Positions 24,779 through 55,258 of a DNA stretch of 64,000 nt are shown here, one piece after another. Position numbers and translations under genes: made by a program. The DNA comes from Bolinopsis microptera. Its lineage: Eukaryota > Ctenophora > Tentaculata > Lobata > Bolinopsidae. The notes under the pieces were generated by a model. That model was not told where the DNA came from and did not search any database. It worked only from the letters and a program-made list of their open reading frames with translations. Position 1 is the stretch's first letter. The number at the start of each line of letters is the position of its first letter. Where the stretch lies: the NCBI RefSeq assembly GCF_026151205.1, contig NC_087079.1, positions 8,608,635 through 8,672,634 of the forward strand, read 5' to 3'.

Positions 24779-25497
24779 GCTCCTGCAGGGATTCCACCTG
24801 ACCTCCAAAATTTCATGACCAAATCGACATACTCTGCCAGCGTATTCCTCTGTCAAGTTAAATGTGATGTGTGAGTGAGTAAGTGTAGTGTAAAGAGATC
24901 CTATTTTTATATCCAATTTGAATTCTAATAAAGACCCTAAGCATTATGATCAAATTTTTAGTACAATAGTTATATCAGGGTTGACATCTATGATTAATAT
25001 TATAACCCAATATTCATTTCTTTTTCTCCCTTAAATTTAAACCCCCGGCCCCCATTGAACACCCAAAATACCTACCGTCCTTAATAATCGTAAAGACCAT
25101 TTGTTACAAAATAGCTGCTAGAATAATGCATGCCAAATATTCCCTCTTACAATCACAAATTATAATGCCTTCCTATCAACGCCTCTAATTTGGTCATTAA
25201 TCAACCAGACTAGCGTTTTGGTGTGTACAAAAGCTACCAGCCAGTACATTCCTTGCCCCGCTAGTTGATTGTCAAAAATCATACAGCTCAGAACAAACGG
25301 CCATTTACCACTAAGAGCATTATATGTTTTCATTTGTTTAAATTTTATGCTGTAAAATGTGCTAAAACTTTGATTATTTGTTTAATTGATTATTTGTTTA
25401 ATTGACAACATAAAATAGTACAGTAAAATATCTAAATTTGCATAAACAAATCTAATACTTTCAACACTACTATATAACAAATAATTTGAGTTCAGGG

Positions 25498-26451: not shown

Positions 26452-26456
26452 GCATA

Positions 26457-30903: not shown

Positions 30904-33900
30904 ATGGCTGATGAATTTACATGCTGGGTGGCCGTCGTTGGCCTCCCAAGTTTCAGTTCAAAGGAGAATATTGGTCCAGGAAAATCATGTCTTTGCAACC
31001 GATTTATGAGGTAACATTGACTTTATCGTCATTTGCTAATTTTTTCATGTGTTATCAACTTTATATCTTTGTAATGTGATCATGTTCAAACCTTCTGATC
31101 TAAGTCAAATAATCATTGTTTAGATTACAATAATGATAACATAATATATAACAGTGCAGCATGTGACTGTTCCGGTTCTCATCTTCCTAAATGATACAGA
31201 TCTTTAACTGTATGTTAATTGTTCATAATCATAATGTAGTTACTATGGTTATCTTTAACATGTGCTTGTATTTCAGATCAAAGGAAGATGAATATTCAGA
31301 TTACCATCCTTCTGGTGTCTCTAATCAGGACTTCTGTGGTCAGATAATAAATAATGAAAACTTCTTATACTGGGGGTATACTAAAAGGACATTTGATAAC
31401 TGTAATTGGGGATTAAGAATCATAGAACACACCCAATTTTATGATGACAGTAATTTCAAAGCTTTTGGTGGGAGTGAAACCTATCTGAAACGAGCGTTGA
31501 ACCCAAAGATCAATACTCATGGCCCTAAGTATCAGTATATTGATTATGATCAGCTGGCATTTGGTGATAAAGATTCCCGCTCTGAGAAATTTCCTTGTGA
31601 AAAAGCAGAGAAGGTTGTGATTGATGCGTATATTTATGTGTTTGATGTTTCTAGGGAAGATGTTCATTTTGTTGAACAGTACAATATGTTCGAGTCATTC
31701 GTCAAAGGGGTCAAAAAGCCCTTAGTTCTGGTTCTTTCAAAATATGATGAAATGCAATGTAAACATATTGATGCAATAAAGAATCTGACCATACGAAATA
31801 AGGCTCCTGTGGTTGAGATTTCTTCTCATGACAACATAAACATCAACCTTGTTTTCCATCTTGCAGCAAAGTTAGCCAAACAGGGAAATAAAAGTACTTT
31901 AAAGAACTTTGTCACACCATCATATGAAGAATCCTTTAAAATCCTGAAAGAAAAGCGCACTGAAGTATCAAGAATGTTTAATACTCTTACTGAAAAGTCA
32001 GTCATTGACAAGAATGTGACATGGTTTGAATTCATGCAATTCTGCAAGGAAAACAAGCATTTTCAGAATTATTGTGAGTTGTATGGAACAAAGAAGGCTA
32101 AGTCCATTTTAGACCGACACATAAGAAATTTGACAATCAAGCTCAATGAAAAACGAAAAAATCTTTATCTTAAAGATCTGAAGACCGTTTTTGGTCATTT
32201 CATTGGTAGTTTGAACCTTGCCGATCATAAAGTTGCCATTCAGTTTATCAGAAACCATCCTGACTTTAATGAGTATTTTGTTGCTCTATCAGATGAGAAA
32301 TCTTGGAAAGATATGGGAGTGCAACATTCCCCAGAAACGAACAGAATTCTTATACCACTTGATTTACTCCATGAGCAGGAAGCAATCATTTGCTTTGATC
32401 ACAGAATCGCCAAGTTGCAAGAGGAGCAGGATGAAATAGATCTGGCTGACGAATTTGAGCGGTCTCTCACACAAGCTAACAACATTCTTCCTGGCCTGAG
32501 TTTAGATGATGTACTTAACTGTGTTGATGAAAAGTTTTCCAAGTTGAACAGAGCGAAAAGTAAGAGTATTTACAACGATCACCAGCTTGTCATCGCTAAA
32601 CAGTACGAGAAAGAGTTAGAGGAAATGTTGTTGGAGAACACTGACCTGTTTAGAATGCAACTTCCTGGGTATGACTTCATGTTAACTGCCTTAAACAGTT
32701 TTTATTGATTGCTAGAAAACTCGTGAGTTATTTTTTGTTGGCACTAATCTTGTAATAATGTAAATTTTGCATAACTTTACAATATCTTTATTCCCAGGGG
32801 TGACCTTAAGCCAGACGCTTTACAATCTTTAACTAATGGCCTTAAAGAAGATGTGAGGTGGACCAACTTTTGTCACATGGAGAGCAAGAGGGACTGTCTT
32901 CTTCTCCAGCACCTTGCTGTAATTGTCAAGGGAACCAGAAACCAAATGGAGCTGTCTAGTGTTGAGAAGCGGTACAAGTCTGTTATTGTCGAGAAAACTA
33001 TGGCGTAAGTATTTTCCTTAATGAGGATTGTTTTTCCCTGTAATTCTTCTTTTAAGTACGTGGTTTTGCGGGTATTTTAAATACTAAAATTCTAAATGCT
33101 TGCGAAATCGCACTGCATTGTTCTCGAATCACAGATCAAACATCACTAATTAAAGATAAACATCTCCACGAATTCAATGGTCATTGATTCAGACATTGAA
33201 TAATGAATATGTACACGTCACACCTGGGCCATCTGCAATCTGCATCAGTCGCAGCAGGAGTCTGACCTTTATATCTGCAATCTGCATTAATCGCAGCAGG
33301 AGTCTGACCTTTAAATCTGCAATCTGCATCAGTCGCAGCAGCAGTCAGACCTTTAAATCTGCAATCTGCATCAGTCGCAGCAGCAGTCTGACCTTTAAAT
33401 CTGCAATCTGCATTAGTCGCAGCAGGAGTCTGACCTTTAAATCTGCAGCCCTGTAAGAGCCCGCTGTACACATATTCTTATATATAATAATCTTACACTG
33501 CACTGTACCTGCATTATATCGTATTTCATAAGAGTGGGGGTGATAAGTGTAGTGGTGATAAGTTTAGTGCAGGATTCTCACTTGCTACTTACAACTTATT
33601 ATTAACTCGTTTATTAAGGTGTAGGTAACCTGCTCATATAATTATATGTAAATCAGCACGTTGAGTGTGTGCCCGAAATTATACTTTGAAACCTGATCTA
33701 CAACTCCGACCCGGTTTTCTGGTGTGAAACACGTGCGGGGTTATTTACTAAAGCCGGCCTAGTGGTGTGCTACTAAAAGTTAAGTTTGTTCCCAATTAAC
33801 AACTGTACACTAGTTAAGTACACTAAATAACATAGTTAAAGTAAGGAAAGTAATGTCCTGTATCCCGTTAAGTTCTTGTATTATAAAAATAAGTTTATTA

Positions 33901-36900
33901 TTCTACCCTACGGCCACCAGGAGAAAATATCTGAATTCCTACTTAAAGTAAAGTCCTGTACTTATACTTGTATGAAAGTAAAGTTTAAATTTGGTTAATA
34001 TCACATCGCACTTTCAGGAGAAAGGAACTGGGTTACTCGAATACACTGAACGTTGGGGACGAGGAAGTGGCAGTAATCGTTATGTCCGGCTGCACCGACA
34101 CCGCTCAGAGATGGGCTGATAAAATATCCCAGGTTAGTACTTACTCATGAGGAGTGTTGCTAAATATATTAAATGGGAGTTATGAATGTGTCACTTTAAA
34201 ATGATCATGTCATATATCCTGGTTTCTCATTCCTAACATAGCATTTAATTATGTTTATATATAACATCGCGGGTGATAATTATAAATTTAAAGGCTTTTA
34301 GAAGAACAAGATATTAAAATGTGGTCGATGCTATTCCAGGAGAGCTGTACAAAATACTTAATACCTATTCGTATTCTTTTCACAGTAGTAATATGACATT
34401 TAACATCATATATAATATTCGTTTTATGTTATGGAGTTTTATATTAACAGGAAGCAATGTAACAGAAGCAATATATATAATGTAATGTTGCCATGGGGCG
34501 GCAAGTCCCCATACATCGCCGCCCGCTAGTTTTACTGCCTCTTAACATGTACATGGGAAGTGAAACCAAGGCTGTAAACTGTAAAGTGTAAAAATCATTT
34601 AAAATTTGACAAGTACCCACGAATTTGAAATGACAATGGTATGTCAAAGCTAAGTGAAACTATTCGTTGGATAATTCTCAATTAAACTTCGTCTGATTAG
34701 CTTGCTACACGCTCCTAACTCTCTTCACTAAAAGCTTCTTTTCACAAAAAGATCACCGACCTGTGTGACCTACTTTACACAAACTTACAATCTATTTTTA
34801 GGATTGTCTAAACTAACTGCCCCCTCTTCAGGAGTGTTCCGAGGTGACGGTTGATGACGTGTCCTACACTGTAGCGGTCACTGCTCGAGACCCCGACAAT
34901 GTCGAGATCTTCCCCGATTTTCCTATTCATTGTAAGAGCTTACATCTTGTGCATGATGATTTGCCGACTGTCGGATGACATATGACAGACTTGTTTACAA
35001 ACAAACCGACAGACAAACAATAAACATGAAACGACCCAGACAAAAAACATCATGCTCAGTGAGATAGGTCTCTTACATCATGCCACCATGACGTCATGTC
35101 AGATGATTGCATTGGATGAAGTGTACTGACTTGGCAGGAAAACTGGAGATCAGGTATGATCCTGTGTTGACTCAATTTGTTGTATTACTCTGTACATAAT
35201 GAGTTTAGTACCGGGAGCTACCAGCTATCCACCGTGCTCGAAGCTACTACAATACAGCTTTAATCTCAGAATGAGCATGTTTTGGAACATTTGTAAAAAC
35301 CAAGATCAGCTGTCAGACTTTTTTCAGAGAAGAGGGAGAATAAGAATGTCCTCCCCTTTAGCTTTGTCTATTGTTAGGTGTTGGGATTTTCAAATCGAGG
35401 GCGGCTTACTAATTTTAAACCTACCCAGAGGCTCCCTCGCTTTGCTTGCATTTGATTTTCTGCCACCATGATCATTGATCGTACGAACAATAGAGTATCA
35501 TAACCCCACCCTACACAACCAATTAAATATTCATACAGCATGTTAATACCCTGTAGTATTTAGTCTGGAGCCACCCAACTCTCATCTCTAACTGCCGTTA
35601 TCTGTCGCTGCTTCAGAATCAGGGCTTATGTTTATTACCACTCCGTTCCGCCTTCTACTCATCTTTATTCATTTAACACCTGTCTTACTTTGATCATAAT
35701 CTTCTCTGTACTAGGGATTAGGGAACCATTAGATCCTCATGTGTTTACCTTAGAGGCAGGAAAAGCTATTCTCTCTTCAGCCTAAAGTTTTAAAAAGAAA
35801 TAAAAATCACGTACTTAAGCATTGTTAAAGATGCAAGCTGATCTTGTAATAAAATTGCGGGGAATGTAATTTCAAGCAAAGAAAAGTCTGCGCCTTAAGG
35901 ACAGGAAGGCCGTGCAGTAATTGATGCAAGCTGCCACACAAAACTGTGGACAACTCTGAGACTGACAAGACAGATCCATTATAATGATGATAATATAGTA
36001 ATGTGTTGCTTCCTAGTCTTTTGTTATAAACTGTTCTCATCTCCAGAGATGGACAATGGCCGCTAATGCAATTGTTTGCAGACAACAAAACATTGTAAAC
36101 AATTATAATCCTGCACAGCTCACTAGCTGCAGCTTGTAAATTTGTGGAATGCTTTAGGTTTTAAAATTTAGGTTATTTTATCTAACGGAATTGAAAAATT
36201 TTAAATCGAAAAGTTTATCTGTTGTAAATGGTACTTAACTAATTTACTTATTATTACTAATTAATTTGCTTATTTCAGTGATAATTGGTGTTTACCGAAC
36301 AGATGACTGGGACTCATTTAGAACAATAACCCGATCTTTTGACCGAATACAGAAGAGTTACAGAGGGTTACCGTGTCAGATAGTTTACATACCTTCAGAT
36401 AACCAGACTGTTACAGAGGAGGAGGGGTCCCGCTTTGCTCACAGGTGGGTTATTTGTTTACTGTGGGGTGGGGGGGGGGGGGGTTAATAGTCAGCTCTTC
36501 TGAAACGGGGGGGGGGGGGGGGGGGGGGGGGGGCGGGGGCTCTTCAGCTGTAGGCTTTCACAAAAAAAAACTAACAATGAATATGATAATTAAGCTATTA
36601 TATTGGAAGCTATAAACTCTATTTATAGCTTATTGAAAGCCTAAATTTTCTTTGGAATGTTTATCGAAATTTCAAACTAAAAGTTCTTTGTGGTCGATAA
36701 AAGCAATTAAATGTTTAAATTCCACGTCTAAATTTGAGCATGTGGCTAGATTTGGCTTCTATACAAGTCATCATAATCTTTTCAAAATTTTGTCCACGTG
36801 CCTGACAGAAAATATGAACCTATATCGCTCTGGGAAAATTAAATATGTTAAAAGTTAACACAGTAAACTTTTTTATTTTATACATTACTATAGCTAATTA

Positions 36901-39900
36901 TGATCTGGTTTACTCCAGTTATATATCTGTCTCTGGAAATTGGAAACCTTATCAAAATGGAAACATGAAAAGTTGCTGGATGAATTCTGTGAAACTACCG
37001 TTTACTGCCTTAAAAACTTCACTGATGCAAATTAATTCGTTCAGCTCCTAACTTCCCACTGAACAATTATGAACACTTTTTTCGGCGTCTTTGAGGACTT
37101 ATTATTATCAGATTATCGAACACTAACTTTAACCTTAAAAATACATTCATCGTCTTAGTCGGTGTTGAGACACACAAATATAAAGTTACAGGGAATATGA
37201 TAATTGTAATTTAAACCACTAAATTCAGGTCATATGTAAAATCCTATTGATGACTTAGAATTATTTACATCTACTCACAGTAAAATTTCTTCAGTTTGTT
37301 TTTGCAAAAATCACGTCCACTCTCTAAAAAGTGACCTGATGCCATTAAAAATTCATTATTTTGTCAACAACATATATATATTTTGAAGGTATAGTAAAAG
37401 GTCATGCTTACCAATAACACTAATATAGTGACTGTCGCTATTATATATTTATTAACAGTATCGAGTTATCCAGGTTGAACTGTGAGCTGATATCTGAAGA
37501 CACGCTTCAGGAGACTATCAGTTCAGTTCTAACTAGCAACATTGCTCTGATACAGACAAGATCTGAGTTTATAGAGACTCCTTCCAGCGCTAACAAAACT
37601 GTTTTAAAGTAAGGAAATTAAAGATAACAAAATGTATTTAAAAAGTTATAGTTATATTAATTATAATCATAAGAAATCAACGCAACGCTAAAATATTGTT
37701 ATGCATTGTGGCTATCGAACTTTAAAAACGAGGTTTGTCATGTAATTGTCATTTGAACGGGGTGATGACAAGGCGCTGATTACTAAGTCCGATTGTTGGA
37801 ACTTTTAAGACTTCCATGAGTCACTCTATTCGGCTACAAGATTGGCAAAATCCACCCATTGTAGAAGTTGATGAATATTTTGATTTACAATAGTTACGAT
37901 CTAAACTGGCTGAATAAATTTATAACCATTTAAGATAAAGTCTATTAAACTTGCACACTATCAATATTTAAACACACTATACTATAATCTCCCTCAGCTT
38001 AACAATAAGAATGTTGTATGACGACGACACAAGCCTGAAGGAGCTAACAAACTCCCTGTTTAAGTTCCAGTACTGTTTCGTGCACCCCTACGAGCCGGGA
38101 GTGTTCGTTCTTCACACCTTATTGAATGGAGTTCCAGTCTTTGTTATGGTTCACCTGCTCCATTATCTTGGTAGGAATGTTACATTATCTTGGTAGGAAT
38201 GTTACATAGTAACATATTATTTATCATTATTATCAGTATTCAAATTTATTAATACATTTATATTTAATATTATTTATCGTTAGACATTGGCTGTAAGAAC
38301 ACCTAGTCGTGTAGAATAAAATATGTGTTTAATGTTGTCCAAACTAGACTTTTCCGTCGGATTCCTCAAAATGCAGGTCTAGTTGTAGTCTGCACAATCC
38401 GACCTAACTTATCACAGTGTCACGCCTTAATTAGCACACGTTACACTACATCTCGCTACATCTACTGTATCTACCGTCAAATCGTGGTCAAGGAAGTCAT
38501 CGTGCATCATCTTCAATTAACAACTCATCCTTCAACCTCGCTAATTTTACTCTACACTTAACACTACTAGTTGTGTCTTGAATTATAAATCAACAAGTTT
38601 GGTTCCTGTAATTCCAATTTGCTGAACTCCAGAACTTACTTGTATATTTTATCTGGCCACATTCCAAGTATAGATCTGTAACAACATATCTCATGTAATA
38701 CCTATAAGTTGCGTAATATCATTTGCCTGTAACATAATATATTATATATATATAATGTATGGTATATAATATTATGTATGTCATAGTTATTATCTTATTA
38801 TGTGTCTAAATCAAAATTATCATCTCGGGCCCACCTGACCATGTCACTACTTTCCATATAAGTTATAAGTATAAGCTTATACTAACTTATTATAATTACA
38901 AATCACCTACGCAAGTTAGGTCTCTCTTGGACGGTCCCTCTGTCCACACCCCCCCCCCCCCCCCAGGCACCCACTCTCCATCTCTCCCCATATTCCTCAC
39001 TCCCCTCCCCCCTTTCAATGATAAGAGCTACAAATACAGTGCACCAGGTGGACTCAGAGTAACGCTATATCCATTTATCAGACGTTCAGGCACCTCTAAT
39101 AGCTAATACTGCATCTCTAACACTGCAATACTGATATTATATTCGGGGGGCACCCTGAATCCCCACAATGTGTGAGCTCTGTTGTACCCTCATTATTATT
39201 ACACACGTACAACATGTATCAGTGTTGTGGGTGTGAGAGATTGGGGTGTCTACTGAAAGTAGTCATCTCTGGGAGTGTGGATTATTGAGTGTGATCCTGC
39301 AACGTTTGTATCACAACTCATTCGTAGTTATTATCAATATTGTTATAACGTCTATAGCGCACAAATCTATGTGCTGTCATGCAAATTTATTGATAGATTG
39401 TGATGTGTTCACCTCAGTGACCACCGCTCAATGTATTACCACCTAGATTAACATTCACCAGAATAAACTCCTGCAATAACCGCAAGATCCCACTAATTAT
39501 AATCAGATATATATATATCGCCGCCTAACTTTATATCGCTACTAAACACAACATTTAATAATATATAACTCATTACATAATAACAAATAATAACGTAACA
39601 CTCCAGTAGAGGTGGTTGCCAGAGTAACAATTTACAAATTCTCACCACCCCCAGATAAAGAGTCCTACACAGAGCATGGCTGCGTGCTAGTCTGCAAGGA
39701 TTCCCGGCGAGCCTCCCTAGAAAATGCCAGGTATGTCGATTGTCGGGTATGTGAGATTTCAGAACGTGAAATTCAAACCCAATTCCGGGTTGCTGCGGAG
39801 GTGAGTGTAGATATATATTATATACGGAATATATTATATACTGCATACTTAATTGATAAGTTATTCAGGAAGAGTGAGTCGGATCAGGTTAAGTTTGAGT

Positions 39901-42900
39901 AAATTGTTGTTGATTTTAACACGCAGTTTAATCGTACGATTCAGGTAACATCCATAATCCATGCATTATTTATTGTAGTACGGGTATAATAATAACAACA
40001 TCAGCATAACAGAGCTCATGAATACTGCATCTTGTTTGCTACCTACATCTTGTTTGCTACCGGGTTGCTACCCGTACCCTTAAACAAAGCTTCAGTACAC
40101 AACAGTACGAACCTTATATTATACTCATAACACACATGAACTCCTTATGTCATTATCATCGAGATTATCATACACACACTGAAGGAGGCCTCCCTTCAAC
40201 CGCGTAATTTAAATATATTACGCATATTTTGTATATTGAGAGCAGCTCCAGCTTCTCATAATACGTGCGGTAATCCTAATTATCTAGTTAAGCTAGGCAG
40301 TAATTGAATTACACATACAGGGAGTGTTGGAGGGGGCTAATCTTTCAGCTGATAAATTGTTCTTCCTTATCAATCATTGTAGAGCATACAGTTTGTGCGG
40401 ACTTCTTAATTCTTATCAAGACCGGGGGTAAGGTCTAAACCAGCGGCGGGGATATTCTTAGAATATTCGGGATAATTTAGAGCGGCTGAATATCGTGTGA
40501 GTGTGTAAAACGTGAGGATTTGTAATTCTTAGGAAATATTGAGTAAAGGTGATCTGTATGTGGAGTTAATGTAAACTCCTCGTGAGTAGAGAAATAAAAT
40601 AAATTCTCTTAATGTGGTAAGGTATTTGCAAGCATTGCAGTGATAATATTAGTACGATGCTTGTAAATACCTGAACCACATTAAAGTGAAGTTATTTTAT
40701 TAGTCTAATTTTCAGTATTCACAGGTAAGCATGACACTTGATAATTGAAATGCTTAAATAAATAATAAATAAATTCTAACATTTATTACACGCTTCGACA
40801 TTAAAAATATACCCAAAGAATATGTTCATATTTTAAGACCTTCAAGCGAGACTTAGTATGGAAATAATAGAATCATGCACGCTATTAAATCATTTCAGAT
40901 ATTATCAGGTAGCAAATTGCTATAACAGATAGACTAATTGCTACATTGGCAGGTACTACATGACGGAGAACAACGTATCCCGTAGTCTGGGTCTAGTAGT
41001 GGTCCAGACCCCCAACTCTCTGTCTTACACGTCTGCCATCACCCAGACAGCCATCGACCTTGGAATTCAGGTGAGTGTGTGAGCTGTCAACTGAGTTAAA
41101 GTCTGATGAGTACCTAGTAGAAGTATAGTTAAATCATTTATTCGGGGGTTTGATTTTAAACGATCTCTGAAGATTGAAGGGGTATAATAGCCCGTAGTAC
41201 TGCTTATCATTGACGTGCAATATGACAATGGGTGACGCTCCTTTTTCTGACACCAATAAACACTCTGTCTGTATTATAGTAGGTGTTCAGTTGTATTCGG
41301 TCGCTGATTGGTTAAAAATTATCACGTGCGGTTGTATTTGTTCCCTGATTGGTTAAAAAGCATCACGTGTAAAAAGTCTCGTGTTCGTCCCTACAGTAGT
41401 GAATTCTGGAACAGTAGAGTGGACAAATATCTTTTGGGCGATATATCACTTATCAACGGAGCTCTATAATAACAGGGGTTTTGCAACTCTCTTGCAGATC
41501 TTGGAGATGTTGTGACGCAAATTGTTTGAATACTGGGCAATGGTCTCTCTAAGTGAAAACTAATGGAAGGAAATGTAGTTTTGTTCTCTTTGTTCAAATG
41601 TTTGAATGAGTTGACGATGGATTTAGATATAATAATAATGATGACATATCTTGTAAATATTAAGTATTTTATTATCAATTTGTTGAAATTCAAACGCGAA
41701 CGTATGATCACGAAACTGTTGCATCAGTTAATTCTTCGTTGCCTAGGTTTTCAAATTAAGAGATTAATTGCTTTCATCCTCCCGGTTTTTCCTGGCGTTA
41801 ACATTCAATTCGTATGAATGTGATGCGAAACAAATTACACCAAATTCAACCATAGTTATATAGTTTTGAATGACATTGTATCTTCGAGTTTAAAACGAAA
41901 AATGCCCATTTACAGTCGCCTTTAAATACTATTTTTATATTAGTTCACTGCTAGCTTGAGCTGAATAGTTCTTTATACTTATGAAGTATGTGTACTTGAA
42001 GTATAATCTACCACATCAAACACATAACTTTTTTATAACTCACTCTCTTTATTTCACAAAAACCTCAATTTTGTCAAAGTAAAACCTGCCTTTGAATGTA
42101 CTCAATCGATGAGAACAATAACTACACAGACTATATTCACATTTAAAAATTAAAGCTCATCTAATTAATTAAATTAGACAGTCCACGATGTAAGCTTAAC
42201 ATTAGTTACATAAACACGAACACCCCTCAGTACACAATGTTGGAACAAGAGCAAGCGAACAGGAGGGTCTCAATAGGACAACATACCACAGCAGTAGATA
42301 TGTTGTTACTCCACGTGTTGCAGCACAGTGTCCAGTTTGTTGGGGACACCCCCCTAGATCTCAGCTTGGAGGTGGATACTAGCGAAGACGAGGGCAGCTT
42401 GTGAGTTTTCTTACTGGTTTTTACTTTTCATGCCGTTTCTAGCCATCTTCAGTTGTTAAATTATCCATGTCATATAATATATTATCTCAGATAGGGAAAA
42501 AATATATTACACTTTCTGTGCAAGATTCGTATATTGATCAAGCAGAAATATTAATTTTGTTCTAAAATAGTCAAATCAGTTTCATGCGAAGTAGCAAGCT
42601 ACTGATCAATAAGGAGCTGGATACTTGATAAAGTTCAGTTTCTCAAGTATGATGTAACATATGGAGGCACTAAACTTGAAGCTTTTTTCATGCTCCGTTC
42701 ATGTAACTAAGTAGCTAAGTAGAAGCATACTTATGAGCGAATCACTTACTGTCCGAATGTCATATATTTACTGTAGTTAACTCCAAATATTGCAAGCCAA
42801 TGGTGTATCATTTTGTTGTGGTTAAACTGCAACATAATGGTTGTATACAAATGATTCCATACTCCTATCATCAACTTCTAAAGAAGCTTTCTAAAACGCT

Positions 42901-45900
42901 ACATCATGATTAGGCTACAATTTAACTGATGCCCATTGCCCAACCTATATTATCTATGATAGGTTTAATCCCTAACACCTTTGGATTACAGAGCGGAATT
43001 TGCTGAAATAGTCTAGATCTAGTCTTGAATAGTCTAGATAGAATTACTGCGCTTGCAAGCTCACTTCCGCAGAATAGGCGGGTACAATAGCTTCTAATTG
43101 CTGCCTGGGTGGGTACAATACCTATTAAATACTAAATATACTAATTGCGAATACAGCCTCTGGGATCAACGGGAATATCGTACTGTAATACCAGTAAATA
43201 ACGATTGCTGCAAGCTGTCTGCGTTCTGTTGCGGATATTGGTAAATAATATGATATGTTAATTACATAATAGTAATTACATAATGAGCCTAATGGGCGGA
43301 GATCTGAGGTCATGTAGCGGAATAAATAGTCATGGTTTACTCAGCGCTTGTGTACTGTGATAAGTGATTTGGTTCCAATGATCTGATGAATTAAGCAATT
43401 TGCCAATCACGATTTATCACAATCATTAGGTTTCTGAATATCAATTTTCATATAATTACAACTATTCAAGCCTGTTAAATTTAAAACCAGCAGGAAATAT
43501 ACCGTAGTTTAGAATGGCCAATCGCCAATATGCCACAAGATTTGAGGATATTATAATAACACATAATAATAATCGTCGTGTCCGCTGAACTCTTAACTAC
43601 CGTAAATACCGTGCCCATCAATTAGTACTGTTTATTTAAACAAGCTTATCACTATCGTCAGATTATCACTATCGTCAGATTATCATAAGAACACATGCTA
43701 TCAGTTTTGAGTTCAGATGTTCTTATCGGTCACACTGTCACAGATAAGCTGTTATGTGTCAACAGTTAGCGCTGTTATGTAACATTAACTCATCCTATGG
43801 CTTCTCTGAATCCATAAGATGCTATGACCTCGCAGCTTCGCTATTTCCCAAGTGAATAAGCGCAAAAGTTTGGTAATAAGTGCACAGTATGATTTAAAAG
43901 TTCAGGCTCTCGTTGACACAATATTATATGATTATAACAATGATAAATGAATAGTTTTACAATTTGAACTGACGTTTATTACATATTGTAAATTAAACGG
44001 TTTTATCATTCTGTTACAGCTGAGTGATTTACTTACTTGATAAGTTCTCATAATATATGACAGCAGCTGATCAAGTGCATCAAGTTCAGACATGACGATA
44101 TTTAAATTTGACGGTAAATGTTTTCAGCAACGACCTGTCAATAAAAGGAGGAATGCAGCGACACAGGTCCCACACCTTGGACAGACTCGGCTTTGCCTCG
44201 CCTCCTCCACATGGCCCGTACGGCAGGTACGAATTATTATTATTAATAATATCTATATAATCAGTATATCTATATAATCAGTTTTTACAGTATCAGTATT
44301 TTTAAATAATTTGTGGCAAGCTTGTTAAAATCTGTATTACCACACTGTTTCTAGCAAAAACTTATAATTGCTTCTGTTTAAACATAGTTAGGATAGTTTT
44401 CTCAAGACACCTAGTTGGCCTTTAACGTCATTTAACGTCATACTTCAACTCTTAAACAGATATTATGCCAACTAGGGTGTTTTAACTTTGCCATTATTTT
44501 TGCCTATAGTTTTGTTGGAAGTATTATTTTTTGCCCTAATAACGACTTTTCTTTACTTATTTCAATATTATCATTGCATGACAACATCAAATCACTAACC
44601 AAACTGCTGCGCCTCTTCTCACACCTATGACCTCTATTCTTCTCGTAAAGGGTAGCTTAGGTTTATCGTTGTTTGGGTATAGGACACTAGGGCGTAGGAA
44701 ACAAGGGCGGTAGACGTAACAGCTGAGGACACTGGGGCGTTACTTTCCTAAAAGGGTGGACACGAGGGCGAATCACATGATTCATTTCAGTAGAACACGA
44801 AGGCGGAACAAAAACCGTCCTAAATGATGGTCGTTTTAACTGAGAGGATTGATGGTTTGAAATTGAGTGAACACACCTCAGTGAAATTCGTCTACCCAAA
44901 GTAAATACCCGTTTTGGTACGTACTACCCCTGATCTAAACCCGGGTAACCGTAGCGTCAGCGACTGCGATATTTTGAAGGCCAAGTTTGTCACATGAACA
45001 TCTAGGCAGTGTTTGATCGGTCTAAGTACGTTACCAAACACCAAAATCTGCTGCTGAGTTGGCTGAGATATTTAAGGAAAATCTCTCAATTTTTGGCTCG
45101 TTTAAATCTGGGTGATTATTTGTTACATCACTATGTTTTGTTTCAAATTTACACGTGAGTAGATCCAATTCTTCGAGCTAAGCTTTACCTCAACCAGACT
45201 GTTGAGAACATTAAAAAACCCGTTTGTCAATGTTAAAGTGATTCATGTGACTCGCCCTCGTGTCCAACCTTTTAAGAAAGTACCGCCCTTGTGTCCTACG
45301 CCCTCGTGTCCTCCGCTATTGTGTCTACCGCCCTTGTGTTCTCCGCCCTCGTGTCCGGTTCCCCTATGACCTATACCGTAAAGGGTAGGTTAATGTTTTA
45401 CCAGAACTTGCTTATTGACCGTCACTATCACTGTCTGTAACCAGCCTGTATTTAAGCTTATAGACCATTTATCTGTAAAATCGATTCGTGACTAGTTAGT
45501 AGTTTCACCGGTTAGCATGACCAATTAAATCTTTATCGCTATAAAGTTGGTCTAAACGCCTGGCACGTAGAACATTTAGAATTGTCAGAATTGTCTTTGT
45601 TTTTGTTCGCTCTTGATGATTCAGAAAAATCCGGTCTCAACTTTCAGAGTAAAGACACATGCAAATTATGGAAGGGTATCTAGGTTTTAAGTATAGACCA
45701 TTTAGATGCCATCAGCCTGTTTATGGTTGTGCTTAAGAACAGTAATATTTAGAATTTAGATCAATATCATAAAAATGGTACTTTAATCTGACATACACTC
45801 AGAAGTCATCACCTAGTTATATTATATATTATATTGGCTGGCAGTCCTTAGATTTCCGCATTAAAACATAATTACTTATAACTGCGATTAATATCCATTT

Positions 45901-48900
45901 GGAGATTTTTGATACGGCATGCTTATTTAAAAATGAAACTTATTGCATAACACGAATATCACACGAAATGTAAGAAACCTTACTTGATTTTATTCACACG
46001 CCAAATTGATGTGAAATTTGATTGTCACCTTAATCAATCGATAAATTAATTTTGCGTAATAAGGTAATTTAGTTGTATTACATAATACATATATTTAAGT
46101 GTTGAACTGTGACAGCCAATAAAAATTCGAAACAGAGGTACCAAATTTTAATTACTGGTAGTTAATATGAACAATTGATGCCTTTTAAGGACAGATAGCT
46201 AATAGAAGAAGCCCGGAACAGTAACTGTTAAACAAGTCAATCCGCCGGATTCGTAAATTAAAGCCCCATAAACGGCCATAAATCGAAAATGAAGCACCGC
46301 AAGTAAGCCGTATCTGTCAAAGAATTAGCCAATAACTTGTGTTAAAATAAAGAGTTATCATCACTGACAGTTGTCAGACTGGAGAGCTGAAGCTTTGGCT
46401 GGTCTGGCAGTGCCCCAATCCAGTTTTAGAGGCTCCCGAAATCTTCCCGAAACCCCTGCCCTGTTCTCGTCATTATTAATAAGTCAAAATAAGAGTTGAA
46501 GTCGTATAAGTTACGACGAGAAAATGTCATAAATGAATAATTTGGGGACCTGGTCAGCAAATAATATGACGGGGCGAGTAGTTAAATTACGACAAGTGTT
46601 GGGTTACGCGGGTTGTTTACTAACGGTAATTATGTAGCAGTACGAAATTCTCCCCTGCCTCGGCCGAGGTTTTAACTTGTCAAGGCCGTATGTCACGTTC
46701 CAGTTTTATTAATCCGTACCAACTGTTTAATATCACCCTCTCTGCTTTTGCGTGCCGGATCGTGCTTCAACCTTGCTTTACCGACCTGTTCGTTTTTTAC
46801 CACCCAGCGTAAAACACCTGAGTTTTATTTGATAGAGTTGCTTGTTTTAGCCAGCGTGAAATGTAATTGATCCTCACTCCATGGATCCGATCGAGTACGA
46901 GGATAACTCTGACGGCGACCTGTCACCGGATGTTTTTAACGCTAACCGTTGTAAAAGTAATTCTAACCGTTTTGCTAAACACGTGTACGAGGTAATACCG
47001 GAGTTTGATTTTGATGGAGTTTCGGACCATTTCGATTGTTCTAGCGGGGAGGATTCACCGTTGTTCCGGCAACCGTCAAATGAGAATGATACTGGGGGTT
47101 ATCTGGCTTTGAACCGTTCTTTCAGAGTTGTTGAAAAGGAACTTATCCACTGTTACTGGTAATTATGATTGATATCGTGTTGATTTAATACGATGAAACG
47201 TATATCGTGTTAATATTAATGTGCTGAAATTGATATCGTGTTAATATTAATGTGATGAAATTGATATCGTGTTAATATTAATGTGATGAAATTGATATCG
47301 TGTTAATATTAATGTGCTGAAATTGATATCTTGTTAATATTAATGTGATGAAATTGATATCTTGTTATTGTTAATCTCCCCACTATTAATGCGATAAGAT
47401 TAAACATATAGCACTGAGGTCTTAGATAGAGCTATAGAGGCGATGACGTTGAAAATGTGTTGTTAGCTAGGTCAATCTGCTGATAAAACAATTTCGCGAA
47501 ACTGAAAATCTTTTTTACTTATTGAGTTTAATTGTTTACTGACATCAGAAGATTTACTGACGTTGTGCCGCATTAAAATTTAAAAGAGGTGCATCTAAAA
47601 ACTTTATTGTGCCCGAAAGTTAAAAGGTTTACTGATTTAAATGAAGGAGTAAATGAGCATTTTTAACAAGACACCATAAAATTAACTACGATATTTCTCA
47701 TTGTTTACAAGCCACTAAAACCGTGTACCACATCCTGTTTATATAGGTTCAAAGTGTAAAAATAGTACAAGTTTCAGTGTACATATTATCATTGATGTTT
47801 CCATGTACTTTTGAGAATGTATTTTCATCTATGCACAATGTTATTTATGAGGCTAAAATACCATCTTAAAACAATTGGCAAGACGATAGTCACTATCGCA
47901 CTTAGAAGCTGGATTTAAAGATTTTGTCTGGCAGTTAAATGTCGCAGACTTGTTGAGGTGAATTTTGGAGAAAATAAATTGAAATATAGTTGTACATAGT
48001 TCAAACTTGGATAAACAAAACTTAACCAGAAAGTCACGATGAATTACTAAAAAATACGTGAACTAACACAACTAAAATACGTGAACTAACATCTAACACC
48101 ACTAAAAATACGTGAACTAACACCACTAAAGACATCATCGCAGTTTGCCGGAGAAGTTCAAGAGTTTGAGTGTTAGTTGGAACGAACTACGAGATGACGG
48201 TATTGCCAACCACTCCTGGAGTTCCATGCCCAGAAACATGAAAGGTACAGTTCATTTACTGATATATTTCAAGGTTTTGTCACTTATCTTACGATTTATT
48301 TGCTCGTGTACTGGAATACTCCCCCTTCGACACTTGAAACTACACGTATTAAACACATTGTGTTTCGAGGTCATCACATAAATAATATAATACATACCTC
48401 CTTTTTCAGAGAAAGTAAGCCTAGATAAGACGCCTCCGATCTACTCTATAGTAAACAAGAACAGACAACGAGCTTCCTCTTCATTTGATAACCTAGAATC
48501 CGGACCCAAGTCTCCTCCAATTCCACCTCGCCCCGACAGGAATTTCAGTGAGACCAGCAGTGAGGGACCTGATGATAATCAGAACAAGACAGGTGGTTTG
48601 GTCACCCATTCACTGTCTGATTCTCCGTTCAAGCCTAAGAGGATTCCTAAGGCTTTCAAACAATCGAAGAAACTTACTGAAGAAGAGGTTATTGTTTATT
48701 ATGTTTTTACGCTATCGTGTTCAATGGCTTGTCTTGCGTAGTAACTACTAAATGCTATTTCTATATTATTCTGAATGAGTTACAGACTGACTTACTAACT
48801 TAAGTCAAGCCTTTTGTTCGACTGTGAAGTTCTTAGGTTGGAGTTATTGATTAAGTTTTTACCGAGTAAATCTCCTAATATTTTGATCTACAGGTTGAAC

Positions 48901-51900
48901 AGAAGAAGTTGGAGAAGAAGAAACGGGAAGAGAACAAGATTAAGAAACGGGAAGATAAGGAAGAAAGGAAGAGAAAAGCTAGGGAACAAAAGCAGGTTAG
49001 AATTCTATTGTACGCTTCACGTTATGTAGGAAGATCAGAAACTGGGGCAGTGTTAACACAAATTAACTCAAGATCAACTTAATATTGCATTAACAATAGT
49101 AGGTAAAGATCCGTTGGGATATGCGGATGGTGATTGCAAAATTCTAAGCTTGTAAAGGGTTCAGCTACTGGTATAGGTAATTATACTTCAATATTAGAGA
49201 AATGATGCACTGAACCCCTCAGATAATTTCTGTGGTTACTTACGAAACACTATCTATTCGAAATATTTCCCTATCACATCACCACCAAATCCTTCTGTCT
49301 GATTATAAGTTCCATCAAATAAGGAAGGTCTCTTCGCGAACAGTGAGCCAGCAGAGGGGCTGGCATGGGGCCAATAGGGGGCTGGCATGGGGCCAGTAGG
49401 GGGCTGGTATGGGGCCAGCAGGGGGCTGGCATGATATGAGAATTGAGTTTAACACCGCTCGCTTGTTTTTTTGGGAGTCTAGTTGGGATAATTATATCTT
49501 GCTAATATAGCTCGCTAAATCGCTAAAATGCATTCTTTTACCAACGAAAGGAAACATGGTGTTTAATGTCTCATGATAGCTGCTCGATAAATTTTTTTAA
49601 ATATTTTAGGTAAACAAGTTTAAGCTGGTATCATTGCCTCCAAAAAAGGAACCTAATTCTAATTACATTTTCTAGAACTATAATTCTAATAATATGTTCT
49701 AGAACTATAATTCTAAATTCTAATAACATGTTCTAGAACTATAATTCTAGAACAATAGTTCTCGAACTATATATTTCTAAAAATGTAATACTTAAATCTC
49801 GCCTTCTTAGCTGGAGAAGAACAAGAAAATGCTGGCAAGCTGGGATCCCAAACGAGACATCTCCAACACAAAGTCCTTCAAACAGCAGCCCTCGATAGCT
49901 GACTACCACAAAGTGGTTGAAAGTTGTTACTTTGGGCGGAGCTTGGAGGAGATAGCACCTTGGGGAGGGGTACCTTATTATGCTTCCTTGTGTGTGGAGT
50001 ATTTGGAGTGTCATGATTTGACGATAGAGGGGTTGTATAGAAAAGAGGGAAACAAGCTTCAGATTAACCAGCTTGAAGCTACTTTTGAGATGGGTGAGTT
50101 AAAATCGAAATTCCTTTTTAAAGCACTGTACTGTGTTGACGTTTTTCAGATCGTTTAGTTCATTTTCAAAAAACTCCTTTTCTACACATATTAAATTTGT
50201 GGTTTGAAAATCTGAAAATCATTCCATTTTTTAACCCCCTTATCAATTTACGTCGTAAAGTCATATCAATAACTCAATTTCAGCGTTCAGCGGTGAAGAA
50301 GAAAGCCTGTCCGGGTTCAACCTAGTCGAGTTAGATGTCAGTGTCCACGTGGTCGCCAGTTCCATTAAGAAGTTTTTGAAGCGGCTCCCAACTCCTGTGA
50401 TACCCCACGAGTTTCATGATCTGCTCCTGGCCGCCGTCGGTATGTAAACTTTGTAATTAAATCAAAACATCACGTACCATCATCTTCTAGGATCACGGAT
50501 GCTTGGATGTTTGCGCAACTGGTACTAGCGGATATTTACGTTTGATGTGAGGCGCAAAAAAGGCGTTGGGCACTCATTTCACGCGCGTTTTTCTCTTCCA
50601 AGTGGCCATAAATAAAACTCGTGCTTTGCATGCTATTTGACAAATTGGTTGTGCTTTCTCTTTAAACTGTTATCTAGCTTGCTCTCAGCTAAACCTTCAA
50701 CAGAGGTAGGAAATCTAGAAGCAACTGCAAATGCTGATCACGTGGTTCGGAGTCTGGTAAAGGTTCAGGAGATTCTGAATACTTTTGTTAAACAGAGAAA
50801 GCTCACCCTGGCGTACATTATCAGACATCTTTCAAGGTATGTTGGTTGTGTGTTGTCTCTGTTGTCTCTTTTATAGAACATGTGCGAAAAGTTAAGCTGG
50901 TTTTTAACATAATTGTTAGGATACTATCAAACAATGCAAATGTGCCCAGTTATTTTCATTCGAATTTGGAAAAGTTAGCGTCATCCTCAAATCACCATGG
51001 TTGAAGATTTAATCCTCAAATCACCAGGATAGCAGAGTTAAAAGACCAGAACAAGATGTCAGCCTTCAACCTGGCTATCATCTTCTGGCCCACTCTTCTC
51101 CAGCCCACCCAAGACGTACTGATGAAGAACGACGACAGAACCAAATTCAGTAACATGGTTGAATTCCTGATAGATAACTCTGACTCTCTGTTTGGTCCAG
51201 AATTACCAAGCTGCCCGCCTCCTGATGAAGAGGATATTTACGACATGGTATTCCACCCTGAACTTGTGGTTAGTCAACAAATCAAATGATTGACTTAAAT
51301 TTACACATTAACTACATAATTAACATCATGTTTATCACATCAGAATTGTTTTACAATTATAATAATTGATCCTCAGTGCTAACATGACATAGTCCCACTT
51401 GCAGAAACAGAAGACACAGGAAGAGTACGAGTACATAAAGCGTCCTAAAACCTACTTCAACCAAGCGCTGCGTGTGGGACATGTGCCCAGTCTGGTGAAA
51501 CAGATCGTCACTTTCATTGAACATGGTTCGTGTCCTTGAAACGTTGGAATTTTCATAATATGGAGCTAGATATGTATGTAACATATATGTATATAAGAGT
51601 TGTTGTATTGTTTTAAATTTTGGAATTCCGCGGAAAGTTTATGTCAAGCATGACTTGCTGCACAGACATAGTCTACACGTCTAATCGTCTCCATTACCAG
51701 GACGGATTACTACAAGTCTTTACGTGCACACAGCTCGGTCTGACCTGGTGGACAACTTCGTTAAGACATACGAAGCAGCTTACGCGGTAGACGAACATCG
51801 CTCGCTTAATCTGAGGAAAGTTCTGAAAAATCTGACGATAACTCGGTCCCCGACTGATGACAGTATCAGCGCCAGTACTACCACTGATGAGAACTCTGTC

Positions 51901-53542
51901 TCTTCCACATCAGGTGCTTTTAATGTTAACTTTCATGTTTAACTACTCGACTCTCTTAAAGAGATTTTGACAAAACAAAGCACAAACTGAAACCAATTCA
52001 TTTGTTATCACGTGATAATGTCCGGAAGTTTGAACAAAATTTCGTCATCTTGACACTAAGATCACTCATGAACGGGTGGCCCTAAAAAAGTAATGAGTAT
52101 TAGTGTCAATCATGCGAGAAGTTTTCTGAATGACCGAATGAAAATATAATGGAAAATGTAAAAATATAATGATAAATAATGTACATTTCCAGGAGACCTG
52201 TCGGACAGCAGATTCGGAGTGTTTGAAGAGCAGACTATGGATTGTACCATATTAGCTACTGTGCTCAAGAGATACCTCGCAAGTTTGATAATTCCTATGA
52301 TTCCCGCGGAGCATCATGTTAATTTCCTGGAAATTGCGACAGGTGAAGAAATTGTAGAGATAAAGAGATTGTAGAGATAAAGAGATTAGCTGATTATATA
52401 TTCATTATTCAGAATAATTCCATATTTTGTAACAAGAACTGTATCCCATCATAGGTAAAAATTAATACTACAAATTATGTTTATTTCGGATTTTTGATTC
52501 AACAAAATTGATATTCCTGTATTATAGTCGGTGAAGAAAGTCGAGGCGCAAAGATACGAGACTGCTTTGACGAGTTGAAGACAAGTCACAAAATCTTGCT
52601 GTCCTACCTGATGAAACATCTTAGCTTGTTTGTTATTTTTAATTGCATTCGTTACATACTTTATTGGGGGATCAAATTTTACCTTCCATCACTGCAGAAT
52701 GCTTAATTTTTAATCCATTTTCATACAGCTTGAAAATCAATCCGTTTTATGGAGGTGTAGCCTAACTATAAAAAACCTTCCTCTCACATAACTAACCTAC
52801 AGGATGCGAGACAAAGGAGTTGGCCAGCTTGAGGAGACATTTGCTCCAATACTATTCTACGGTAACACGGATCTCTGCTCCACTAACCTGACGGACCTGA
52901 CAGAGCCCACAAGTCCTGTTCCAATCACGTACAGTCCCAACATGGTCCAACAACAGCGGTGTATTAGATACCTCCTGGAGAATGTTCATGTTTATGCGCT
53001 CAAAGATGGAATTTCTTTGTATGCACCCCTTTATGAGACTATGGAACAGGTCTGACTAATGATAACAGAGAAAAGAATATGTTACATATATATTTTACAT
53101 AGCATATTTTACTTCACTCAATACTTGTTGATCGTTGAATATGTATTTCAAAAAGACATGAACACTAATATGTAATTCGATTTATTTTTCTAATTCCACA
53201 AATTTTAATGTGGTGATTTTCCAGGATATGAACTCACCATCAAGTCACCAATACAGCAGTGTCCACTACAGCTTGCCAGTCCTCCCAGAGGAAACACGGC
53301 ACTACGACCTCCCCTCCGACGTGCCCCACTACATCGACCCTCTCTACTCCTCCATCTCCAACACCTACACTCGAGATCCAGCCCTCAGGTCACCCATCAC
53401 CGGCCCTCAATACGCAGACCCGGACGACTTGTCCGAGTTGTACGAGGAGGATCCCACAATATCCCCCAACACTAATACGTATGTGGACGCTGTGCCACTG
53501 GTCATCAGAGCCAACAATTCGGATGTTCTGCCAAACAGATAA
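30904..53542 (+). CDS. ARHGAP35: p190RhoGAP homologue with a second, pseudo-RhoGAP domain
   Basis: Exon starts-ends: 30904-31010, 31277-32668, 32798-33004, 34018-34132, 34832-34931, 36279-36444, 37459-37608, 37998-38170, 39607-39730, 40953-41070, 42231-42400, 44128-44226, 48144-48244, 48410-48687, 48894-48995, 49811-50093, 50284-50439, 50689-50836, 51028-51268, 51405-51525, 51701-51913, 52193-52342, 52528-52627, 52803-53049, 53225-53542. All phases agree; total 5379 nt, 1792 residues (human about 1500). Domain order: GTPase-like domain with P-loop GPGKSCLCNRF (K27, S28) and SKYD in place of NKxD; FF-type helices to about 500; two pseudoGTPase (pG1, pG2) regions about 575-940; lysine/glutamate coiled coil; active-type RhoGAP with arginine finger R1211 (EGLYRKEGNK); second GAP-like domain with V1459 in the finger place; tyrosine-rich tail. 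It should inactivate Rho at the membrane and cytoskeleton. Family membership is firm; ARHGAP35 versus ARHGAP5 cannot be decided. Confidence 0.9.
33235..33444. repeat. 42-bp tandem repeat, five copies, intronic
   Basis: Five head-to-tail units of 42 bp with few differences lie in the intron after exon 3. The unit is a multiple of three and has no stop in one frame of each strand, which creates long false open frames on both strands. There are no spacers, so it is a minisatellite and not a CRISPR-like array. Confidence 0.92.
36470..36533 (+). repeat. Two poly(G) runs just after exon 6
   Basis: Runs of 14 G (36470-36483) and 27 G (36507-36533) lie within 90 bp of the exon 6 donor (36444). They might form G-quadruplexes in the pre-mRNA. 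Their exact length should be treated with caution. Confidence 0.85.
38161..38204 (+). repeat. 22-bp tandem duplication across the exon 8 splice donor
   Basis: The unit CATTATCTTGGTAGGAATG plus TTA occurs twice in a row and contains the donor TTG|GTAGGA, so two identical donors stand 22 nt apart. Only the upstream one (exon end 38170) keeps the frame into exon 9. Use of the second adds 22 nt and shifts the frame. Confidence 0.85.
38949..38964 (+). repeat. Poly(C) run of 16
   Basis: A homopolymer of 16 C in the intron between exons 8 and 9, followed by more C-rich sequence to about 39010. No other feature is seen here. Confidence 0.85.
44624..45399. repeat. Foldback element with ~110-bp inverted arms and direct flanks
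   Basis: Arms at about 44677-44784 and 45240-45377 are inverted copies built from a short alternating word (GGACACGAGGGCG and GGACACAAGGGCGGTAG types), the right arm being longer by extra units. About 455 bp of unrelated sequence lies between. Outside, a roughly 40-bp sequence starting CCTATGACCT and holding CGTAAAGGGTAG occurs as a direct repeat at 44624-44665 and 45363-45399. No coding capacity. It sits in the 3.9-kb intron after exon 12. Confidence 0.65.
46881..47158 (+). CDS. Candidate alternative first exon of the p190RhoGAP gene
   Basis: An ATG at 46881 in good context (CTCCATGG) opens 92 codons ending at a donor (CTG|GTAATT) in phase 2, the phase exon 13 requires. An in-frame TGA at 46857 and the lack of any AG between it and the ATG rule out a normal internal exon in this frame, so it fits a first exon fed by an internal promoter. 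The peptide is acidic and serine-rich (EDNSDGDLSPDVF, DCSSGEDSP). Joined to exons 13-25 it gives 2736 nt, 911 residues: coiled coil, both GAP domains and tail, without the GTPase, FF and pG parts. No transcript evidence is available to me. Confidence 0.42.
47168..47374. repeat. 31-bp tandem repeat, about five copies
   Basis: Unit built on TGATATCGTGTTAATATTAA plus 11 more bases, repeated about five times with the first copy diverged. It begins ten bases after the candidate alternative exon's donor. Confidence 0.85.
48047..48129 (+). repeat. Short tandem repeat just before the exon 13 acceptor
   Basis: Three to four copies of a unit containing AATACGTGAACTAACA end 14 bases before the exon 13 acceptor at 48143, taking the place where a branch point and pyrimidine tract would be expected. 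Confidence 0.7.
49347..49432. repeat. 22-23-bp G-rich tandem repeat, four copies
   Basis: Units of the form GGGGGCTGGCATGGGGCCAG/ATA repeated four times in the intron before the first RhoGAP exon. G-runs at regular spacing suggest possible quadruplex formation. Confidence 0.85.
49669..49770. repeat. Palindromic TTCTAGAACTATAATTCTA repeats
   Basis: Several overlapping copies of the self-complementary word TTCTAGAA joined by ATAATTCTAA stretches. It ends about 40 bp before the acceptor of the exon that carries the arginine finger. Confidence 0.75.
51405..53049 (+). other. Exons encoding the second, finger-less RhoGAP-like domain
   Basis: Exons 20-24 (residues about 1411-1687). Parallels with the first domain: ITTSLYVHTARSD against TIEGLYRKEGNK; DCTILATVLKRYLASLIIPMIP against DVSVHVVASSIKKFLKRLPTPVIP; LLSYLMKHLS against LAYIIRHLS; GQLEETFAPILF against FNLAIIFWPTLL; and a last helix RCIRYLLEN against NMVEFLIDN. 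The arginine finger is valine (V1459) and the conserved asparagine of the NLAIIF block is glutamine, so GTPase activation is not expected. A serine/threonine-rich insert lies between its first two blocks. Confidence 0.75.
53303..53428 (+). other. YxxPxD motifs in the C-terminal tail
   Basis: The last exon encodes HYDLPSD (tyrosine about residue 1714) and QYADPDD (about 1750), both fitting YxxPxD, with further YxxP sites between (HYSLPV upstream, HYIDPLY). In vertebrate p190RhoGAP two phosphorylated YxxPxD sites before the GAP domain bind the SH2 domains of p120RasGAP. Here they stand after both GAP domains. Binding is inferred from motif only. Confidence 0.6.
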
Positions 53543-55258
53543 CGATTGGTAATCCCACTTAACCACGGGGTGTACTCTGTAATCCCGCCTCTTTCCGGTG
53601 GAGGAGGAGTTACCCGTGTTATTTTGAAATTGGAGCTACAATTTGAAGCGTTGTATTCGTGTATATTGTACATTGTATGTAGAAGTAGTGGGATGCATGG
53701 ACTAAGGAGCCGATATTCCATTATATTGCATGTGACAAGGAAGAGCGACTGTTAAAACCATTATACGATAAACTCCTGTTCAAGTGATGGATATTTTTAC
53801 TACGGCTTTAAACTCGAATTTTGTTTTTAGGATATAATTAATAAGTTATTATAACCTTACTTTCGAAGAGATTCAGTAGGTTACAGAAAATTGAGTGTTC
53901 TCTCCTCACGCTATCCGGTTCACAAGCAAACTGCTGCAGAAATTCATTTCATTCAGACAATTTGTTATGTACTTCTGAATCATAGTGCTATTTTTTTAAC
54001 TGAGTTATAAGAAGGCTCCTTTGCCTCTTTTTAAAAACATTTTTGTTGGCTCACATTATTTTTAACTTAACGTTAAAGAAATTTTGTGATCAGTATACCT
54101 CACAAATTCAATTCATTGGCCCAAGGGTTGTTTTGATTTTGAAATGAAAATTTTGAAGGTTGTTAATTCAAAATACATTTTTGTTTTTTATGCCTGTGGT
54201 ATAAAATTATCTATAAATACGATATGATATATTATTCAATGTTCTGTCTTTTTAATAATACAAGCAGATTTTTGTTTGCAATATTTGTTGAAATATATAG
54301 AGTTTTACTGAACAATCTGACGAAGTTTACAGCAATAATCAATAAAAATCTTTCACTTGACATGACGGGAGGTCGGGAGGACCGTGAAAATCTGTAAATA
54401 TTAAGACCTTAAAGCTTTTAACTGCTCAGAAAGGAAGGAAGACCATGAAATCATCATCAAGTTGGAAACAATATCAATGAATATATGTAGAAATAAATTT
54501 GTGTCAATGATCTATTTACCTTAAAGTTAATATGGAGGTTTTCTAGTACAACTTTCTTATACATGAGAAAGGTTACTCGACATAAATTACTTCGGAGCGG
54601 AGAGGTTTCCATACCAACACTGGAGCCCACTCCAGTGTTGGTATGGAAATTGGACGCTGGAGGCCTTGATGCATGTTGAATATCTCTTAACACCGCGCGC
54701 GAAAAGAGGTATACATACAATTACAACGTGTATCAATGGAGGCCTAAGCGCTCATTTTAATGTCCGTTCAATTAAATTATGTCCGGTCAAATAATTTCCG
54801 ATAAGGTAGCAGATCTATCTACAGTGTGTTTTAAATTTAAGCCTTCCTTACGGTGGCTTTCACAACTTGTCCCTATGTCTCCAACTCCTGCTGCTGGAGA
54901 GAGAGAGACTCCCAAACCATATAGGCATATACCACAATCATATTATACATAGATGACGGCAAAATACTCCTGGAGTCTTGAAGCTCTGTTTAACTACCGC
55001 CCCTGGTGCAAACTCCAGCCCCGCGTCGGGTTAAAGACGGCTAGACAGAGACTTCCACTTCCAGTACAGGGGAAGTCGTGGACTGTTATGTGCAACTCGT
55101 AGGACTGTGCATCGTTCCTGATCCTGGTGGGTCATGTTACTTCTGAATCGGGATCGTCAAACAATTGTGAGTTGATACACAGTTGCCTGGGTGTCTAAGT
55201 GGAAACTAGTGTCTCTGGAGTCTGGTCTGTGGTCCTCGCTTATATGTTTATATATGTA
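53543..55258. other. 3' UTR and spacer
   Basis: The p190RhoGAP message probably ends near an AATAAA at 54341-54346, giving a 3' UTR of about 0.8 kb. Beyond it a perfect hairpin at 54606-54649 is the only structured feature recognised. No coding region is supported. Confidence 0.45.
54606..54649. repeat. Perfect 20-bp hairpin with 4-nt loop
   Basis: The arm TTTCCATACCAACACTGGAG is followed by CCCA and then its exact inverted complement. A 20-bp uninterrupted stem is far beyond chance and has no sign of decay. It could be a small foldback element, a transcript-end structure or a small-RNA precursor core. Confidence 0.85.

Follow-up and report, generated by a model that had tools for sequence, protein, structure and literature searches.

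The closest described relatives of the protein considered here are the p190RhoGAPs (ARHGAP35, ARHGAP5 and the single p190 of Drosophila), with which it shares an N-terminal GTPase domain, an FF1 domain and a catalytic RhoGAP domain that best matches that of p190A. A single p190RhoGAP, with the GTPase-like domains pG1 and pG2, is described in Drosophila and in the sponge Amphimedon (PMC5593906). In p190A and p190B the RhoGAP domain occupies the C-terminal end (PMC6523970), whereas in the ctenophore Bolinopsis microptera the catalytic RhoGAP domain (GAP1) is followed by what reads as a second RhoGAP domain, devoid of the arginine finger (GAP2), and by a tail.

There is as yet no agreed account of how p190RhoGAP is kept inactive. 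For p190A, the region of the FF, pG1 and pG2 domains is reported to inhibit the GAP domain, which it seems to mask, and to bind adjoining residues 1069-1231 (PMC9840978). It has also been proposed, as an untested idea, that a pseudoGTPase domain binds in cis to the GAP (PMC6523970). The pG1 and pG2 domains are themselves degenerate enzyme domains that have been kept within the family (PMC5593906), as GAP2 would be; they are GTPase folds placed N-terminal of the GAP, whereas GAP2 is a GAP-type domain placed C-terminal of it.

Two further precedents come from outside the family. The RhoGAP-like domain of OCRL and INPP5B is part of an inositol phosphatase and is not known to have a working RhoGAP beside it. 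Like GAP2 it is finger-less, and it binds endocytic adaptors (PMC3852207, PMC8305018); unlike it, GAP2 stands behind an intact RhoGAP domain. The other precedent is p85, the regulatory subunit of PI3K, whose RhoGAP domain is described as being without GAP activity and as missing Asn391 and Val394 among its contacts (PMC8305018). According to PMC3852207, p85 keeps the arginine together with a secondary lysine, whereas GAP2 keeps the lysine only. No description of a p190, or of any protein, with tandem RhoGAP domains was found in the open-licence literature, where the nearest phrases concern SYDE1/SYDE2 and the ASH and RhoGAP domains of OCRL1 rather than tandem RhoGAP domains; the word RhoGAP is absent from the text of three ctenophore genome papers.

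The p190RhoGAP gene

The gene was modelled as 25 exons on the forward strand, from 30904 to 53542, which encode 1780 amino acids in a single open frame (Table 1). It lies in a window of 64 kb, the whole stretch of DNA that was analysed, and the window contains no ambiguous N bases. A ctenophore source agrees with an ionotropic glutamate receptor encoded in the same genome, whose top PDB match is the ML032222a iGluR (E 1.8e-54) of the ctenophore Mnemiopsis leidyi. Genome searches for COX1, let-7 and GFP families and for an 18S primer pattern gave no match; the controls for let-7 and GFP were silent as well, so that for these two no absence is indicated. Splice sites were picked by hand on the basis of reading frame and GT-AG borders, and a candidate exon at 41498 was dropped because its reading frame closes. 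The last ten exons, from 49811 to the end of the stop codon at 53542, are all bounded by GT-AG introns and share one open frame; the donor at 52628 (gtttgt) is weak. Over the GAP2 region an automatic spliced aligner returned an identical intron 51526-51700 and an identical donor, with its phase, at 52343, placing the matching acceptor 9 bases further on, and it disagreed with the hand-placed sites of introns 51914-52192 and 52628-52802.

Table 1. Coding exons and domain regions of the p190RhoGAP gene model (positions in the window)
Feature	Positions	Strand	Remarks
First three coding exons	30904-31010, 31277-32668, 32798-33004	+	Encode the N-terminal GTPase (Ras-type) and FF domains (Pfam)
Middle exons 1-6 of twelve	34018-34132, 34832-34931, 36279-36444, 37459-37608, 37998-38170, 39655-39730	+	Open frame, GT-AG
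Middle exons 7-12 of twelve	40953-41070, 42231-42400, 44128-44226, 48132-48244, 48410-48687, 48894-48995	+	Open frame, GT-AG
GAP1 (catalytic RhoGAP), four exons	49811-50093, 50284-50439, 50689-50836, 51028-51268	+	Phase-0 introns on both sides
Intron between GAP1 and GAP2	51269-51404	+	136 bases, phase 0
GAP2 (predicted finger-less RhoGAP), five exons	51405-51525, 51701-51913, 52193-52342, 52528-52627, 52803-53049	+	Phase-0 introns on both sides
Last coding exon	53225-53542	+	Encodes the tail, with all four YxxP motifs, up to the stop codon

An earlier note on this DNA had taken the gene for a p190RhoGAP, and the domain searches agree. At the N-terminus the Pfam Ras profile scores 23.5 bits against a cut-off of 21.6, with no single stretch passing alone, and within the N-terminal 924 residues RhoGAP-FF1 scores 36 bits (cut-off 30.1) while FF_RHG35_4th, at 18.8 bits, stays below its cut-off of 27. 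This Pfam scan, which covered the model up to residue 924, gave no match, pG1 and pG2 included, in residues 474-924; the two pseudoGTPase domains, taken as given in the earlier note, are assumed to be present from the domain order of the family. A search of the whole genome with FF1 returned a single match, within this gene, which thus looks like the sole p190 gene. GAP1 matches Pfam RhoGAP at 111.9 bits and its four best solved relatives are all p190A or p190B entries (3fk2, E 5.1e-24; 5irc, 2ee5 and 2ee4), the best of them being p190A (3fk2). Its arginine finger is R1199 in this model, numbered R1211 in the earlier note.

Several other features were seen in and around the gene. The long intron 44227-48131 contains, at 46881-47162 on the forward strand, an open stretch that begins with ATG (MDPIEYEDNSDGD...) and has no Pfam match; it could be an alternative first exon or a cassette exon of the p190 gene. 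Another intron carries a tandem array at 33231-33447 (42-base unit, 5.2 copies, 94% matches), and at 50983-51041 a 29-base sequence is directly duplicated (two copies, 83% matches) across the acceptor of the last GAP1 exon. Upstream of the gene, the forward strand of 25456-27674 holds a PHD-like ORF of 18.7 bits, below the cut-off of 24, and an endonuclease ORF (Exo_endo_phos_2, 42.8 bits), and looks like the remains of a LINE-type element.

GAP2 as a RhoGAP domain

Spliced GAP2 (277 aa, residues 1399-1675 of the model) scores 41.7 bits with the Pfam RhoGAP profile (PF00620), for which the cut-off is 24.5; E is 1.4e-10, and the match covers positions 47-120 of the 148 in the profile. In a profile-profile comparison by hhalign with 13 RhoGAP domains from this genome, E was 6.9e-7 and the probability 91.9%. 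The strong match is confined to the middle of GAP2, and the ends, finger position included, match weakly. Thus, with block profiles of the family, none of 2000 shuffles reaches the 42.2 bits of the middle block, which runs from before the conserved lysine to HLS, while 3 reach the 5.6 bits of the N block (helix A and the finger loop) and 52 the 1.3 bits of the C block. A hydrophobic-core test was not significant for either end (10/12, reached by 18 of 120 shuffles, and 11/14, reached by 30 of 120). A long insert lies between the finger region and the conserved lysine. When the genome was searched with the GAP2 protein, it was found in this window only. On these matches GAP2 is classed as a RhoGAP domain, and the RhoGAP fold is probably shared. 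A second RhoGAP region behind GAP1 in the same frame, as proposed in the earlier note, is therefore confirmed: the exons given there hold, with GT-AG borders throughout and no stop, and the Pfam score exceeds the cut-off.

Origin of GAP2

Evidence on the origin of GAP2 comes from intron positions and from sequence relationships. The intron phases are 0,1,1,2,0 in GAP1 and 0,1,1,1,2,0 in GAP2, the extra phase-1 intron of GAP2 sitting just before the finger loop. The phase-2 intron has the identical position in both (HLS|R in GAP1, HLS|L in GAP2), the phase-1 intron that precedes it is displaced by one codon (LAAV|A and EIAT|V, respectively), and the first phase-1 intron of the shared series falls in a loop of differing length (FEM|A and SSTS|G). 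A phase-1 intron at the LAAV|A column recurs in RhoGAP loci L004, L006, L008 and L014 of the genome, and a phase-2 intron at HLS in L005 and L014. All three internal introns of GAP1 occur together in none of the 19 other RhoGAP loci, four of which are intron-less within the domain and several of which have partial models. The shared phase series, which was not seen complete in those loci, suggests that an exon cassette with phase-0 borders was duplicated within p190.

It is also conceivable, and we think unlikely, that GAP2 was derived from another RhoGAP gene and not from GAP1. By single matches to solved structures GAP2 is nearer to RICS (E 0.0033), to the RhoGAP-like domain of PI3K p85, which is the second-best match (0.021), and to chimaerin (0.036) than to p190B (0.52), and the tree, in which the end branch of GAP2 has a length of 4.46, leaves the domain unplaced. 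A tree constrained to group GAP2 with GAP1, p190A and p190B is slightly better than the free-search tree, and the AU test (p 0.534) neither rejects nor demonstrates that grouping. What speaks against a foreign source is the intron evidence: besides the absence of the complete GAP1 set elsewhere, with the reservation just given for intron-less and partial loci, the RICS-like locus L003 has none of the internal introns of GAP1.

Elsewhere in the genome, two RhoGAP domains, L011 and L012 (contig C3:16269583-16276481), lie about 6 kb apart on the same strand, are intron-less within the domain and look alike by eye; they are perhaps a tandem gene pair.

Loss of catalytic and contact residues

Residues of GAP2 were named after positions of p50RhoGAP as given in PMC8305018, the names being transferred by motif spacing. 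The GAP2 residues at positions 282, 319, 323, 391, 394 and 398 are Val, Lys, Ala, Gln, Glu and Pro, respectively. These were set against 20 domains, 13 of this genome and 7 from PDB alignments, in a table that leaves out 7 of the 19 RhoGAP loci fetched, L018 among them. The finger column (282) is Arg in all 20 and Val in GAP2 (V1447 in this model), a placement that rests on the weakly matching N block; both glycines that flank the finger are replaced in GAP2, by Ser and Ala. The secondary lysine (p50 Lys319), present in 20 of 20 domains, is kept, as is Pro at 398, which is found in all 19 domains with a letter there. Position 391 is Asn in 15 and Ser in 4 of the 19 domains with a letter there, and position 394 is Ile, Val or Leu in 18 of 19 and Thr in the remaining one. 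Because p190A has Ser and p190B Ala at position 323, the Ala of GAP2 there says little.

Since other RhoGAPs have Ser at 391, a change at that position alone would not condemn the domain. The missing finger, together with Glu at 394, weighs more as a mark of a dead domain, and judged by its residues GAP2 is apparently catalytically dead. The two substitutions to which attention had earlier been drawn, Val for the arginine finger and Gln for the conserved Asn, are both seen in the alignment against the 20 domains. The L018 locus (contig C5:17687000-17688000) has a RhoGAP-like domain in which Ala appears to occupy the finger position (ELFAVRG) and seems to be finger-less too; we take it to be perhaps a relative of OCRL.

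The earlier note had envisaged Rho or Rac being held without hydrolysis. GAP2 would then keep a Rho-family GTPase in the GTP form, as an effector-like clamp beside the working GAP. Retention of the secondary lysine and of Pro398 would suit such a clamp, but positions 323, 391 and 394 are described as binding determinants (PMC8305018), and GAP2 has Ala, Gln and Glu there. The Ala at 323 carries little weight, as stated above. Because of Gln at 391 and of Glu at 394, a position where 18 of the 19 compared domains with a letter have Ile, Val or Leu, and with both finger-flanking glycines replaced as well, the proposal is weakened, and we regard a Rho-GTP clamp as improbable.

Coding status and continuity with GAP1

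Codon use was trained on the other 19 exons, with background base frequencies taken from the six introns. By this measure the GAP2 exons have a log-odds score of +79.7 in the spliced frame, versus -21.8 and -20.2 in the other two, and the coding score is highest in the required frame for each of the five GAP2 exons and for the tail exon. All six introns come out negative whichever frame is taken, a result that is partly built in, since the background was taken from the same introns; the contrast between exon frames is unaffected.

These scores bear on whether GAP2 might be a relic on its way out, which stays in frame merely because the next exon encodes a tail that is needed. The length of its branch, the long insert described above, and the weakly matching ends would be in keeping with such decay. 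Against it, all five exons are in frame and resemble coding sequence in their codon use, and the middle block keeps the family pattern. Moreover, the cassette is skippable because it is phase 0-0. A relic seems to us an unlikely explanation of GAP2.

That a separate downstream gene owns the GAP2 exons is very improbable indeed: translation continued into the intron behind GAP1 would stop after six further residues (VSQQIK), as a separate gene would allow, but that intron measures 136 bases and its phase 0 matches on both sides, the first GAP2 exon contains no Met codon in its spliced frame, and neither AATAAA nor ATTAAA occurs from 51001 to 54340. Most likely, then, GAP2 belongs to the same gene as GAP1, as had been supposed, with the frame open across this intron.

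The YxxP tail

The exon that follows the GAP2 cassette encodes four YxxP motifs (YSLP, YDLP, YIDP and YADP), and there are no others in the model protein. Four in the last 105 residues compare with 1.19 expected, a count reached by 1.7% of shuffles, and none in the first 1675 residues with 2.48 expected. The phosphotyrosine sites of p190A are located between the pseudoGTPase domains and the RhoGAP domain (PMC6938330). It is possible that the tail is an SH2-docking segment to which the docking motifs for p120RasGAP have shifted. The genome search gave 33 SH2 and 8 RasGAP matches, with no SH2 match within 400 kb of any RasGAP match, in a search that can miss exons. With no SH2 near a RasGAP no p120-type gene is seen, which counts against docking of p120RasGAP at the tail. 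Two small contigs carry near-equal pairs of SH2 matches (C102:25555-26089 and C107:10984-11517), which are possibly copies or haplotypes of one stretch.

A proposed role for GAP2 in p190RhoGAP

The reading that we favor, with a probability of about 0.6, is that this ctenophore p190RhoGAP contains the RhoGAP exon cassette twice, GAP1 being the working copy and GAP2 a pseudo-RhoGAP that has been kept as a non-catalytic module for protein binding or regulation. GAP1 would be the working RhoGAP of the protein. GAP2, after loss of its arginine finger and of most of its GTPase contacts, would have been retained on the C-terminal side of GAP1, in a role like that of the RhoGAP-like domains in OCRL and p85. 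In its simplest form the proposal is that GAP2 binds either elsewhere within its own protein or to a scaffold partner. A binding or regulatory module is inferred from three precedents, namely inhibition of the p190A GAP by the FF, pG1 and pG2 region, the proposed pairing of GAP and pseudoGTPase in cis, and the finger-less module of OCRL; binding might take place either in cis or in trans.

A more specific and decidedly speculative version, to which we would give little credence at present, has the dead GAP2 docking in cis with the family's own dead GTPase, a pseudoGTPase domain, and thereby opening or locking GAP1, in a two-GAP form that might even be ancestral.

Whichever partner GAP2 may have, the occurrence of a second RhoGAP domain in the p190 of this animal lineage is relevant to how the family evolved. 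In the same speculative version, and provided that ctenophores are the earliest branch of the animal tree, a two-GAP p190 could be the original arrangement and the single-GAP form of other animals a loss. A natural p190 with a spare, dead GAP would also separate binding from catalysis, and would thereby make testable the idea that a pseudoGTPase domain binds the GAP in cis.
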